Below, piece by piece: positions 1 through 36,144 of a stretch of 64,000 nt of DNA. The stretch is from a bacterium (GTDB lineage: Bacteria > UBP6 > UBA1177). Both the position numbers and the translations under genes were made by a program. Position 1 is the first letter of the stretch. Each line of letters begins with the position of its first letter. The notes beneath the pieces were generated by a model. That model did no database searches, was not told the origin of the DNA, and was given only the letters and a program-made list of their open reading frames with translations. Location: positions 1 through 64,000 of the forward strand of contig JAFYIZ010000047.1 in assembly GCA_017538365.1 (NCBI GenBank), given 5' to 3'.

Positions 1-1
1 C

Positions 2-214
2 GACCGCATAGAAAAACTTCCCGATGAAAATCCGACCATAGGAATCCTGCTCTGCACGAGCAAAAACGATACTGTCGTGAAAATGACTCTGCCGCAGGAC
101 AACAAAACCATTCTTCCGAAAGAATATCAGATCTATCTGCCGACATCGGAACAGTTGGTGAAAGAAGTAAACGAGGCAAAACAGATCGTGGAAGATACGA
201 AAAAACAATCATGA
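2..214 (+). CDS. C-terminal fragment of a YhcG/DUF1016-type PDDEXK nuclease-family protein
   Basis: The window opens inside this gene; 70 residues and a TGA stop are visible. The visible part reads ENPTIGILLCTSKNDTVVKM and then LPKEYQIYLPTSEQLVKEV. That matches the usual C-terminal end of YhcG/DUF1016 proteins, where a PTIGLLLCKSKN-like strand is followed by an LPS-E-LE helix. These proteins carry a PDDEXK nuclease fold, often sit beside type I restriction genes, and have poorly defined functions. The catalytic residues lie outside the window. The broken restriction-modification locus directly downstream fits that habit. The family call is recognition by eye from a short tail, so moderate confidence. 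Confidence 0.6.
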   Translation, partial: DRIEKLPDENPTIGILLCTSKNDTVVKMTLPQDNKTILPKEYQIYLPTSEQLVKEVNEAKQIVEDTKKQS

Positions 215-241
215 AAAAGTCGTGACAGTCACGACTTTTTC
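214..241 (+). terminator. Intrinsic terminator overlapping the stop codon of the YhcG-like gene
   Basis: Inverted repeat with arms AAAAAGTCGTGAC (214-226) and GTCACGACTTTTT (228-240), ending in a T run. The left arm begins on the last base of the TGA stop. The stem is long and nearly loopless, so the centre probably opens. It should separate the YhcG-like gene from the restriction-modification locus. Confidence 0.8.
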
Positions 242-485
242 CGAAATTTAATCTTACTGGATTCCGTAATATTAAAATCAGTTTGACCGATCAATAAGTT
301 GCACATCTTTTGTTGCATCTCGAATTAAATTAAGCGCAAAAACCAATCGCAAAAACACATCGTTTTCTTTGACTCTCCTTAGATAAAAATTGGAAAATTA
401 TTCAATGAAATTAAGTGGTTATTCTCTTGAAAAGGGGTGGAGTTTGGGGTATGGTGCGGGGCGTTGGTTGGTTGGGAGAAAAAGC

Positions 486-1691
486 ATGATAACAAAAGAT
501 AATTTTTCAGATGTTCTTGTTCAGCTTGGGTTCCGGAAAAAAAAACGGATATATACTAAACATTTTGATTCTGTTGATTGCGATTTAAAAGCTGACTTTT
601 CAAATAAAAAGCTCATTTACCCGGAAGACAAAGGGTTTGAAGTAAATGACGGTACGACTAGTAATTTTGAACATCCTGAAAATTTTGTTGTTTTTGAGTG
701 TGTAAACCGCCTCTTCGAAAAAGGCTATCGTCCAGAACATATTGAACTTGAACCCCGCTGGTCTCTTGGTCATGGCGGTAAAAGCGGTAAGGCTGATATT
801 TGTGTAAAAAATAAAGACGGCTCTCCATATCTGTGCATAATTGAATGTAAGACCGCTGACACAGAATACAAAAAAGAACTTTCTAATATGAAGGCAGATG
901 GCGGACAGCTTTTTTCTTACTGGCAGCAGTCAAAGGCTACAAAATGGCTCGTGCTGTATGCAAGTGATTTTGATGAAACAAATCAGAAAGTTACTTCTAC
1001 TGTATCAACTATAAACTGTTCAGATGATGCCAACTTTATTGAGCTTGCAAAAGATGATAAATCATTAAAACTTTACAAAGACGCTACGACGGTAGAAAGT
1101 CTGTTTGATGTTTGGAAAGAAACTTATGAGCAGAAATTCTATGGCGACATCATTTTTGATGAAGAAACTATCGCTTATGATATTGGTGTTCTTCCGCTCA
1201 AAAAGAAAAGGCTTGTCGACTTCAACCGTGATGATAAGATCGTAAATCAGTTTGAAGAGATTCTGCGTCACAACAATGTAAGCGACAAGGAAAACGCCTT
1301 TAACCGCTTGATAGCGCTTTTTATCGCAAAACTTTACGATGAGAAAACAAAATCTCCGGAAAGCGAAGTTGAATTCCAGTACAAGACAGGAACAGACACT
1401 TATCAGAAAATGCAGGACAGGCTTCAGAAGCTTCATCACTTTGGAATGAAGGAGTTTATGAAGGAAGATGTTTTTTATGTAGCCGACGACTATGTAAAAA
1501 ATGTGATGAAAAATGCAATCGGCGAAAACCGTGAACAGCTGGAAGCAGAGCTGAATGAAACAATCACAAAGTTGAAGTTTTACACCAACAACGATTTTGC
1601 ATTTAAGGATGTTCACAACAAGGCTCTTTTCTATCAGAACGGAAAAATTCTTGTTGAAATGGTAGATTTTCCAAAAATACAGAATTATTGA
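486..1691 (+). pseudogene. 5' part of a broken single-chain restriction-modification gene: nuclease and helical region
   Basis: 401 codons, starting at ATG 486. That start has GGGAG at 474-478 and gives MITKDNFSDVLVQLGF, the usual beginning of this family; an upstream in-frame TTG at 390 has no good ribosome site. Residues 100-125 hold a PD-(D/E)xK type nuclease core: D104 in GKADI, then E120 and K122 in IIECK, as in HsdR N-terminal domains. The rest resembles the helical region before an N6 methylase. The frame stops at 1689-1691. One base skipped in the A5 tract at 1673-1677 would continue as PKYRIIDSNELQLLGD and then GQFFTPIPIT, the family's expected junction. So this is the front half of one gene joined to 1831-4212. 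A sequencing error in the A tract is possible, but a second lesion follows at 1801. Confidence 0.8.
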
Positions 1692-1830
1692 CTCAAACGA
1701 GCTACAGCTTTTGGGCGATATGTTCGAGCAGCTTTTGAACAAGGGCTTTAAGCAGAACGAAGGTCAGTTCTTTACGCCGATTCCGATTACCTGTTTTATC
1801 TGAAAATGCCTTCCGCTTGAAAGCATTATT

Positions 1831-4212
1831 ATGGACGAAGAAAAGAAAGAAATCCGATACCCAAAGGTTATAGATTACGCATGTGGTGCAGGGCACTTTT
1901 TAACAGAAGGATTTCGTGAGATAAATGAAAAAATTGGCGAGCTTGGCTTAAAAGCAGAAAAGGGCTGGGAACGCGACTGCATTTTTGGAATTGAAAAAGA
2001 TTACCGCCTTGCTCGTGTAAGCAAAATATCAATGTTCATGCATGGAGCTGATAACGGAAACATTGTTTTTGGAGACGGACTTGACAATCACAATGAAAAA
2101 ATCGTGATTGAAAACGGACAGTTCGATATTCTCGTTGCAAATCCGCCGTACAGCGTGAGCGCATTCAAAAATCATCTTGAACTTAAAAACAATGAGCTTA
2201 AACTTCTCGACTACATTTCAAAAGACGGAAAAGAAATCGAAACGCTTTTTGTTGAGCGAATCGCACAGCTTTTAAAGCCGAAAGGAATTGCTGCCGTAAT
2301 CTTGCCAAGTTCAATTTTGAGCAATTCAAGCACAAGCTACATAAAAGCTCGTGAAGAAATTCTCAAGAACTTTGCCGTTCACGCAATCGTACAGTTTGGT
2401 AGCAAGACTTTTGGAGCGACCGGCACGAATACAGTTGTTTTGTACTTGCAGAAAAACAATGAGCCGCCTGTAAAGAGCGAAATTGTCAAAGACAATGTAA
2501 CTGCAATTTTTGAAAACGAAGATTTGAAAGTTGTAAGCGACAAGGAGATTTTTGATTCTTACTGCAATAAAATCAGTGTTTCAAAAGAGGATTATCTTGC
2601 GTTTATAAAGACTGCCCGCTATAACGAAGATTACAAACAGCACAAAACACATTTCTATTTTGGAATGTATGTAAAAGAGTTTGAGGCAAGTGCAGATTTT
2701 AAAAAGCTTAAAGCAGAAAAGTTGAATAAGGCATTTTATGATTACGCACTGAATATAGAAAAGGAAAAACTCTATTATTTTGCGCTTGTCTACAAGCAGA
2801 AAACACTTGTTGTTACTGCCCCTAGCGACAACGCCGAGCAGGAAAACTTTTTGGGCTACAGCTGGAGCAACCGCAAGGGCGACGAAGGAATCAAAATTAA
2901 AAGCAGTTCTCCACAAAATTCATGCGGACTTTTGTACAATGTTGACGACGAAGAACATAGCATTGCCCACTATGTAAAAGATGCGTTCTTAGGGATTTAC
3001 CGCAACGATAAATACATCTCCGCAAACGCCCTCAAAGATATGATTGACTTTAACCGAGTAAGTTTTGACAAGGCGATTAAGACGAGCGTTCAGAGTGGAG
3101 CAGTGCAGATTGAAAGCAAGTTTTCGCTGAAAAATATATCTGAACTTTTTGATTGTTCTGCAGGTGGTGATAAGCCAAAAGAGTTTTCTGAAATTGAGAC
3201 AGATATTTTCAAAATACCAGTTTATGCTAATGGAATTGAAAATGATGGTTTAGTTGGTTTTACAAAGAATGCAAAGATTTTTGATGAGTGTATTACAATA
3301 GCTGGGCGAGGAACTTTGGGATTTTCAGTTATAAGGAAAAATCCTTTCGTGCCTATTGTCCGATTGATAGTCGCCATTCCGAAATCTAAAAACATAAATC
3401 TCTATTTTGCAAAACTAATGTTTGATTTACTTGATTATTCAAATACTGGTGGCGTAATTCCTCAATTAACAGTTCCAAATTTTATAAATAATAAAATTCC
3501 ACTTCCACCATTAGATGTGCAGAAATCAATCGTTGCAGAATGTGAAGCCGTTGATTCAGAATATCAGAATGCACAGAAAGAGATTGAGGACAACAAGGCA
3601 GAAATTGCTGAGATAATGGCAAATGTGCAGGGAGAAGAAAGGCGACTTTCTGAACTTTGCTCAGTAATAAATCCTTCTAAATCAGATATTCGGGATATAT
3701 CAGATGATACTATTGTTTCATTTGTTGACATGCCTTCTGTCAGTAATGATGGTTTTATCGAGAAAAAATTAGATAAACCATTAGCTGAACTGAGGAAAGG
3801 CAGTTACACATATTTTGCAGAAAATGACATCATTATTGCAAAAATAACTCCATGCATGGAAAACGGAAAATGCGCAATTGCAAGAAATCTTACGAACAAA
3901 ATTGGAATGGGAAGCTCTGAATTCCATGTATTCAGAATAAAATCTGACTATTCAACAGAATTTGTGTTTGATTATCTGAATCGTGCAGAAATTCGTAATG
4001 AAGCACAGAAAAATATGACAGGTGCAAGCGGTCATCGTCGTGTTCCTATATCTTTCTATGAAGCATTAACAATCCCTGTTCCACCTCTTGCCGAACAGCA
4101 GAAAATCGTCGCTCAAATCTCCGCTCTGGAAGAAAAAATAACCGCCGCAAAGCGTGTAATGGCAGAGTGCCCAGAGAAGAAACAGGCGGTGCTGGATAAA
4201 TTTTTGAAATAA
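1831..4212 (+). pseudogene. 3' part of the broken restriction-modification gene: N6 adenine methylase and two specificity domains
   Basis: 793 codons remain open from the first ATG after an in-frame TGA at 1801-1803. The frame before the TGA (from about 1681) reads GQFFTPIPITCFI and would continue KCLPLESI, so the TGA probably replaces a sense codon such as TGG. SAM motif I is DYACGAGHF (residues 15-23) and the catalytic motif IV is NPPY (104-107), which define a gamma-class N6 adenine methylase. From about residue 430 two HsdS-like target recognition domains follow. Each is closed by a typical hinge, PLPPLDVQKSIVAE and PVPPLAEQQKIVAQ, with a helical spacer between. With the 5' part this makes nuclease-methylase-specificity in one chain, a type IIG/type I-like design. 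The methylase half lacks its start region and is probably not made as a normal protein. Confidence 0.8.
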
Positions 4213-4218
4213 ACCGTC

Positions 4219-4341
4219 TGAATTTATTGGGGAAGTGGTTCTGACACACGCCCCAGTCATCTTGAACGAATGTGAAAGATCTCTGAGATTCTTCGCTCAC
4301 GCTCAGAATGACGAGCGGGCGGGCCGCCCGCGCTCCGACAA
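4219..4341. repeat. Dispersed intergenic repeat, copy 1
   Basis: Starts just after the methylase/specificity stop with GAATTTATTGGGGAA. It continues into a 59 bp core (4258-4316: CATCTTGAACG to GAATGACGAGC) and ends in a GC-rich GGGCCGCCCGCGCTCCGAC block. Copy 2 lies about 480 bp downstream; the cores differ at only two of 59 positions. Frames through this core read ILSVSEESQRSF, a string often mis-annotated as protein in bacterial genomes. It is non-coding here. Confidence 0.8.
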
Positions 4342-4697: not shown

Positions 4698-4870
4698 ACT
4701 GAATTTATTGGGGAATGGTTCAAGATTCCAAATTGGAATCTTAGAAAGCCTGCAGGCGAGCCGCCCGCGCTCCGACACACGCCCTCGTCGTCATCTTGAA
4801 CGAATGTGAAAGATCTTTGAGATTCTTCGCTTACGCTCAGAATGACGAGCAACATCCCCTCGCCACACTG
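4698..4870. repeat. Dispersed intergenic repeat, copy 2, with nested hairpins
   Basis: Repeats GAATTTATTGGGGAA and the 59 bp core (4792-4850) of copy 1, with a 50-60 bp insert between them. The insert holds the hairpin AGATTCCAAATTGGAATCT (4722-4740) and the block CCTGCAGGCGAGCCGCCCGC (4749-4768). A related block occurs inverted at 57629-57657. Beyond it, to about 4950, are further repeat-like pieces: TAGGGGAGCTGG and a GGCGC/GCGCC hairpin. The TAGGGGAGCTGG piece is shared with 25017-25028. Confidence 0.7.
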
Positions 4871-4965: not shown

Positions 4966-6300
4966 TTATCTATTGATTACTACGATGAAATCACGACCGT
5001 TTCTGCTTATCGTGAAGAGGAGTTTCTTTGATTTGTTGATGATCTGGTTTGCTTCAGCGGCGTTTTTGACCCGTTTTTTGTTGATCGCGACTATTACGTC
5101 CCCCGGCATGAGGCCTGCGGAGTAGGCAAGCGAACCCTGTTCGACATTGGAAACTGTGATCTTTCCTTTGTTGTCGGAGAGCGTGAGTCCTATCTCGTCG
5201 AGGACTTTCTGGTCGAGTTCCTGCGGAGTGTCTGAAGGCTGGAAGTTTTTGTCGAGAACGACGTCTAACTTCATCGGTTTGCCGTTTCGGATGATCTCAA
5301 GCGGTATCTTTTTGCCGTAAGGGCTGAATGCGACCGCTGTTCTGAACTGCGAGATGTTTTCAACTTCCTTGCCGTCGAATTTCGTGATGAGGTCGTACTG
5401 CTGAACTCCAGCTTTGTCTGCCGGGCTTTTCGGTTCGACGCTCGAAACGAGGATTCCGTTTACCGATTTATCGATCTCGAAGTAGTTTCTGATGTCGTCG
5501 TTAAGTTCCTGAATGACGATACCCATCATCGCGCGCTGTATCTTTTTGCCGCTTTTGAGCTGCTGCGTGATCTCTTTGACCATGTTCGCCGGAACTGCAA
5601 GGCCGATCCCCATGTAGCCGCCTGACTGCGAAAGTATCGCGGTGTTCATTCCGATGACTTCGCCTTCGACATTGAGGAGAGGTCCGCCCGAGTTTCCTGG
5701 GTTGATGGCAGCGTCTGTCTGGATGAAGTCTTCGTAGTCCGTGACGCGCATTCCGCTTCTCCCTTTTGCAGAGACGATGCCGAACGTGACGCTGTTTGAA
5801 AGGCCGAACGGGTTGCCTATCGCGATCGCGAAACTGCCGACTTTTATTTTATCCGAATCGGCGAACTTGAGTTCCTGAATTTCTCCTTTTTTGAAGTCTT
5901 CTATCTTGATGAGACCGACATCGGTGTGCGGATCGGTGCCGATGAGTTTCGCGCTGAAAGTCTTGCCGTCTATCATGACTTCGATCTTATCTGCTTTTTC
6001 GACAACATGGTTGTTTGTTACGATGAAACCTTCCTTGTCGTCGATTACGAAACCAGAGCCCTGCGCCTGGCTTTTTCTGCTGCGCGGCTGCATCGGATTG
6101 CCGAAAAAGAAATCGAAGAACGGGTCACGAGCTCTCTGCTGCTCGGTTATCTCGACTTTGATCGAAGCGACGCTTTTTTTCGCTTTTTCCGAAACTTTGA
6201 TGATTTCCTGCTCGAAATCACGCATGTCAGAAGCACTTATCTGAGCGAAAGAAAAGAACAAAAAGAGCGGTAAAAACAAGAACTTTGTGAAATTTTTCAT
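4966..6300 (-). CDS. degP: Periplasmic serine protease HtrA/DegP family
   Basis: 444 residues. Start taken at the ATG at 6300, preceded by GGAGGG; an upstream in-frame ATG would add nine residues and spoil the signal peptide (MKNFTKFLFLPLFLFF..., cleavage near ASA/SD). The trypsin-like domain shows the catalytic triad H98 (TNNHVV), D127 (HTDVGL) and S204 (NPGNSGGPL). Two PDZ domains follow, about 255-345 and 360-440. An aromatic-rich FFDFFFG loop near residue 61 is the LA-loop region typical of DegP. It degrades or refolds misfolded envelope proteins in the periplasm. It stands alone after two envelope genes on the same strand with about 90 bp between, so it may have its own promoter. Family certain; DegP versus DegQ not resolved. 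Confidence 0.92.
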   Translation of the reverse strand: MKNFTKFLFLPLFLFFSFAQISASDMRDFEQEIIKVSEKAKKSVASIKVEITEQQRARDPFFDFFFGNPMQPRSRKSQAQGSGFVIDDKEGFIVTNNHVVEKADKIEVMIDGKTFSAKLIGTDPHTDVGLIKIEDFKKGEIQELKFADSDKIKVGSFAIAIGNPFGLSNSVTFGIVSAKGRSGMRVTDYEDFIQTDAAINPGNSGGPLLNVEGEVIGMNTAILSQSGGYMGIGLAVPANMVKEITQQLKSGKKIQRAMMGIVIQELNDDIRNYFEIDKSVNGILVSSVEPKSPADKAGVQQYDLITKFDGKEVENISQFRTAVAFSPYGKKIPLEIIRNGKPMKLDVVLDKNFQPSDTPQELDQKVLDEIGLTLSDNKGKITVSNVEQGSLAYSAGLMPGDVIVAINKKRVKNAAEANQIINKSKKLLFTISRNGRDFIVVINR

Positions 6301-35565: not shown

Positions 35566-36144
35566 TCAACTGTTGTGTTTAAACCCTAATTTTTCAAGAT
35601 TTTCGATGACTTCGCAAACCGGAAGTCCGATCACGTTCGAGTGGGAGCCGTTTATTGCTCTGACCATAAACGCCGCCTTGCCCTGAATTGCATAAGCTCC
35701 CGCTTTGTCGTAAGGCTCGTCGGTATCACAGTAAAAAGCGATTTCATCAGCCGAAAGTGTTTTGAACTCAACATCGGTGCTGACTGAAAAAACGGAAGTT
35801 TTTCCTTTGTAGAATATCGCGACACCGGTGCAGACCTGATGAGTTCTGCCGCTGAGTTCCGAGAGGATTCTTTCGGCGTCGGTTCTATTTTTCGGTTTGC
35901 CGATGACTTCGCTTTCCAAAGCGACGACGGTGTCTGCGGAAATAACCGGAATATCATAGTAATCACTTGAATTTACTACTGATTTTCCTTTTTGTTCAGC
36001 TAAAGATTCAACGATTTCGGTCGGTTTTAGCCCCTGTTGGATCTTTTCTTCGCAGCACGGTTTTACAACAATTGGTTCGAAGCCGGCATCTTTCAAAAGT
36101 TCAAACCTTCTCGGAGAGCCTGAAGCAAGCACTATTTTCATCAT
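35566..36144 (-). CDS. maf: Maf-family nucleoside triphosphate pyrophosphatase
   Basis: 192 residues from ATG 36144 (GGAG six bases upstream; TTG at 36156 in frame overlaps it, ATG 36141 is an alternative). Signature IVLASGSPRRFELL at the start, ISADTVVALES and IGKPKNRTDAERILSELSG in the middle, GAYAIQGKAAFMVRAINGSHSNVIGLP at the end. Maf proteins hydrolyse non-canonical nucleotides or dTTP/UTP and affect septation. First gene of the minus-strand set maf, site-2 protease, beta-helix protein. Confidence 0.95.
   Translation of the reverse strand: MMKIVLASGSPRRFELLKDAGFEPIVVKPCCEEKIQQGLKPTEIVESLAEQKGKSVVNSSDYYDIPVISADTVVALESEVIGKPKNRTDAERILSELSGRTHQVCTGVAIFYKGKTSVFSVSTDVEFKTLSADEIAFYCDTDEPYDKAGAYAIQGKAAFMVRAINGSHSNVIGLPVCEVIENLEKLGFKHNS

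Follow-up and report, generated by a model that had tools for sequence, protein, structure and literature searches.

The gene at positions 486-4212 (+) of the window, the whole 64,000-nucleotide stretch of bacterial DNA that was analysed, is very probably a horizontally acquired single-chain type IIG restriction-modification (R-M) gene that was recently inactivated by two independent changes, a two-base loss at about 1665-1671 and a nonsense change at 1801. Open reading frames and their translations gave one gene in two main open pieces (Table 1), and the chain read through both lesions is about 1242 aa long.

Table 1. Coordinates of the features in the window (strand in the third column)
Feature	Positions	Strand	Description
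Shared stretch	1-471	+	95% identical to C40:1-471, another contig start in the same genome
YhcG/DUF1016-type nuclease gene, 3′ end	2-214	+	Truncated at the contig start (base 1 of window and contig coincide)
Piece 1	486-1691	+	401 aa, ATG 486, stop 1689-1691; HSDR_N-type nuclease and start of the methylase helical part
A9 run	537-545	+	Longest homopolymer of the gene; frame kept through A9
Nuclease core	795-851	+	D104 795-797, E120 843-845, K122 849-851
Lesion 1	1665-1671	+	Net two-base deficit against relatives (better fit); directly upstream of A5 1673-1677
In-frame continuation	~1666 to TGA 1801-1803, then 1804-4212	+	
GQFFTP block	1762-1779	+	Per column kept in 47-52 of 52 relatives
Lesion 2	1801-1803	+	TGA; Trp (TGG) in 9/9 nearest relatives
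Piece 2	1831-4212	+	793 aa from first in-frame ATG; methylase catalytic part and two specificity domains
SAM-binding motif	1879-1899	+	ACGAGHF
NPPY	2140-2151	+	N6-adenine methylase catalytic motif; NPP in 52/52, Y in 45, F in 7
Type-I-like specificity domain 1 (Methylase_S)	3121-3576	+	PF01420, E = 2.3e-28, 2 stretches
Type-I-like specificity domain 2	3667-4197	+	PDLC03127 Specificity_I, E = 8e-57

Relatives used for comparison

Relatives were collected by scanning genome_contigs with piece 2, which returned 78 loci; their sources were varied gut and rumen bacteria, plus isolates from other phyla. The aligned set comprised 52 of the 66 loci L039-L104, each with a single open frame of 1130-1500 aa and the FTP block; the remaining 14 were truncated, split or otherwise failed the length and FTP filter, and a few of the rows kept (L048, L060 and L090) fall short at the 5′ end. 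Broken members are frequent in the family, with pieces displaced or in more than one frame at 7 of 59 loci (L065, L068, L090, L096, L097, L103 and L104, with the first part of L103 displaced by 3.7 kb), a count from which L101 was excluded, its second-frame match being another gene. Related IIG genes of Campylobacter and Helicobacter contain or adjoin long G runs, namely G9 at L061 6879 and G14 at both L088 3585 and L088 7158, which suggest phase variation there. Among plasmids, 631 records matched piece 2, all at less than 60% identity and one covering at least 80% of it; piece 1 had no match in phage records, and two exact 29-30 base pieces of the sequence each gave 0 matches in viral_contigs.

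Family identity and domain layout

On its PADLOC and Pfam matches, the gene belongs to the single-chain type IIG R-M family, a known kind. The PADLOC profile PDLC03624 (REase_MTase_IIG, single chain, 1271 positions) matched piece 1 at positions 1-387 (E = 2.4e-122) and piece 2 at positions 443-1270 (E = 4.3e-146), and the two pieces are therefore parts of one chain. Profile and gene have the same order of nuclease, methylase and specificity parts, whereas the chain of this gene has two interruptions between its matched parts. Pfam returned a nuclease (PF13588, residues 73-149 of piece 1), an N6-adenine methylase and two Methylase_S matches on the gene. With these matches, and with intact single-chain relatives in existence, the reading of the region in an earlier note as an all-in-one R-M gene holds, as does its account of an NPPY motif and two specificity domains.

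The residues of a PD-(D/E)XK nuclease that the note had named, D104, E120 and K122, are present at those positions and conserved, being kept in 51/52, 50/52 and 52/52 aligned relatives, respectively (one alignment row is a gap at both 104 and 120). The FTP block, motif I and NPPY are likewise all in the DNA. GQFFTP lies upstream of the TGA, and the stop thus separates the FTP block from motif I and NPPY and severs it from the remaining methylase. Nuclease and N6 methylase share one frame in the aligned relatives; here that frame is interrupted twice, so that the gene, judged by its sequence, is a broken descendant of a single-chain type IIG gene and not a working member of the family.

Frame loss at 1665-1671

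Lesion 1 is better fitted by a net loss of two bases than by a gain of one. The region around it is gapped in 0 of the 52 aligned relatives, and in a frame-switch scan every possible switch point left one of the relatives' residues without a counterpart, which argues for two missing bases and against one added base. The top switch fell after base 1664 (mean score 61.2 against the 52 relatives, 96.5 against the eight nearest), with 1667 and 1670 close behind, and past base 1665 the shifted frame follows the family pattern hydrophobic-Phe-Gln-Lys-Tyr. The figure of two bases rests on relatives of which the eight nearest share 51-56% overall identity with the gene. A one-base gain together with a separate three-base loss is possible and is less simple.

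The frame loss had at first been attributed to an extra A in the A5 run at 1673-1677. This cause is not supported by the scan, in which switches within the A run scored lower (50.3 and 51.4 against the 52 relatives, 83.9 and 82.1 against the eight nearest); the A5 is one among 25 runs of at least five A within the gene. In an intact allele, the A9 run near the gene start could be a site of slippage.

In-frame TGA at 1801

The TGA at 1801-1803 is in frame, as the earlier note had it, and none of the readable relatives has a stop in this column (61 of 67 loci, six being without a readable match). The description of the replaced residue as a family-typical Trp stands for the nearest clade and fails for the wider family, since all nine nearest relatives have TGG and the 52 other readable loci carry another sense codon, mostly for Ile, Val, Leu or Met. 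Residue 441 of the chain, next to the TGA, is Lys here and Asp in all eight nearest relatives, and because this change adjoins the TGA, lesion 2 may belong to a more extensive local alteration. The two lesions lie about 130-137 bases apart, close to the 120 bp first given.

An alternative genetic code in which TGA is read as Trp was considered and rejected, because only one internal stop of any kind was found in the 41.1 kb of frames matched to congener proteins, and that stop, near 35588, precedes the likely start of its gene.

Decay and assembly fault

Matching to congener proteins located 41,103 bases of coding frame in the window, and within them there were zero frameshifts and one doubtful stop, the one near 35588, which lies in a leader. 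A leader with two apparent frame switches in a discarded test that was swamped by shadow frames precedes the start of a gene that we take to be TypA. Against this clean matched frame, two lesions in one 3.7 kb gene stand out, and poor assembly behind both of them is unlikely. The earlier argument that two lesions so close together speak for decay is thus upheld in its conclusion; closeness is weak evidence taken alone, and the clean remainder of the window is the stronger.

It is accordingly improbable that sequencing or assembly errors close to a contig end account for both lesions and that the organism has an intact gene. The assembly is a draft in 49 contigs, the gene begins at base 486 of its contig and adjoins a stretch that is present twice, and the remainder of the gene appears intact, all of which would suit such errors. 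However, in addition to the state of the matched frame, a two-base loss and a separate stop within about 140 bases make an unusual error pattern, and neither lesion is a homopolymer length error.

Likeness to known systems

The C-terminal end of the AloI and TstI chains carries two type-I-like specificity domains, and two such domains are present at the same end of the same chain here, as found with the Methylase_S and Specificity_I profiles. TstI is described as a single-chain type IIB enzyme with restriction, methylation and recognition in one polypeptide, of 1251 aa in its native form (PMC4027205). The gene resembles AloI and TstI in its one-chain nuclease, methylase and specificity layout and in its length, with about 1242 aa here against the 1251 so given for TstI; it differs in being broken, and the likeness is one of layout and length.

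For cj0031 of Campylobacter jejuni, a change of frame is predicted to abolish cutting and marking together (PMC4889913). Nuclease and methylase are fused in one frame in Cj0031, as here, and joint loss on frameshift is predicted there. The same source gives Cj0031 a TaqI_C domain and a G9 tract, whereas the gene in the window carries two Methylase_S domains, is without a G tract, and its loss is not a reversible slip. The methylase part also resembles RM.BsaXI (PDB 8w0p), which matches residues 27-214 of piece 2 (E = 3.2e-17); BsaXI has a separate S subunit (PMC9159934), whereas the specificity domains here lie in the same chain. Piece 1 had no relative among solved structures at E < 0.1.

Expected function

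By analogy with relatives, the intact protein would use its two specificity domains to bind a bipartite target, methylate adenine at that target and cut unmethylated DNA. Piece 1 retains the nuclease and has no target recognition. Piece 2 retains SAM binding, NPPY and the specificity domains and is missing both the conserved FTP block and the helical part at the N-terminal end of the methylase. Given what each piece lacks, neither cutting nor marking is expected. The broken frame is observed directly in the DNA; the lost activity is deduced by analogy with TstI and cj0031. With both activities in one chain, their joint loss should spare the host from cutting itself, which would make such a loss easy.

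It is very improbable that piece 2 functions by itself as a methylase guided by its own specificity domains and that restriction alone was lost. Motif I, NPPY and the two specificity domains of this piece are undamaged and well preserved. However, the FTP block missing from it has its F, T and P columns conserved in 52/52 relatives, the helical N-terminal part of the methylase is missing as well, and the ATG at 1831 has, by eye, no good ribosome-binding site.

Least credible of all, to the point of being negligible, is a gene that is phase-variable by slippage and was caught in its off state: type IIG genes can be phase-variable, as with the G9 tract of cj0031 (PMC4889913), and some relatives have the long G runs given above, but the frame loss misfits any change in the A run, the A5 is unremarkable among the runs of its kind, the longest run (A9) is in frame, and a TGA is irreversible by slippage. 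No hypermutable repeat was found at the point of frame loss, which is best placed outside the A run, and the gene contains no G or C runs of at least 7. The suggestion of a phase-variable A tract, offered with the original reading, loses its basis, since lesion 1 is not an added A in that tract.

Age of the loss

Inactivation by the two lesions appears to be recent, as judged from the sequence, because conserved columns show no excess of changes relative to intact relatives. At columns conserved at the 95% level (n = 127), the broken chain deviates at 1, which ranks it 24 of 53 sequences. Where all eight nearest relatives agree, it departs from them at 14/336 columns, and a leave-one-out control on those eight gave 5-19 deviations per 343-357 columns. 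Conserved sites are thus as well kept as in intact relatives, in keeping with the earlier view that both halves are well preserved and the loss recent. All catalytic residues are present.

Genomic surroundings

The first 4 kb have a GC content of 35-39%, and the stretch from 4 to 12 kb has one of 42-50%. The gene is absent from 14/14 other genomes of the genus, save for two weak matches to the nuclease only. Synteny with congeners starts at 4967, to the right of the gene, and the first gene from there is presumably a degP-like protease. Beside degP, one congener (G014) has type III-like restriction genes, together with a gene that we take to be of the YhcG type, and another (G006) has an IIG gene of 814 aa, with 97% identity to an intact IIG gene on contig C40 of the genome studied here. 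The low GC, the absence from congeners and the other R-M genes beside degP speak for a mobile setting, and the degP-side site looks like a place where R-M genes come and go.

To the left, the neighbouring YhcG-type gene lies outside the broken gene. PF06250 (YhcG-type) matches it at G000:C1:2-160, over positions 99-153 of 157, and has 11 matches in the whole genome. The 471 bases shared between the two contig starts contain the end of this gene; past 471, C40 continues into its different, intact IIG gene, whereas the contig of the window (C1) continues into the broken one.

The two copies of the 97% identical IIG gene (L142 6585-9029 in G006 and L120 434-2944 on C40) belong to two species of the genus and differ in chromosomal position, which indicates recent transfer. 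Behind the broken gene, an interspersed repeat of about 45-60 bases is found at about 4240-4300 and 4771-4834; it has 27 further matches in the genome, on many other contigs, at 80-100% identity.

Meaning of the finding

In sum, the gene is an ordinary, recently inactivated R-M pseudogene, and gene losses of this kind are unremarkable. The finding bears mostly on annotation: a genome survey would score either two R-M fragments or an active system here, neither of which is likely to function. The case also shows that a frame loss can be located correctly by comparison with relatives where the nearest homopolymer tempts and misleads. A tentative and rather unlikely extension is that the degP side is an R-M exchange point in the genus and that the IIG cassette on C40 may have functionally displaced the broken gene. 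If true, incoming R-M genes would regularly render resident ones dispensable, and the residents would decay within the recent history of a strain.
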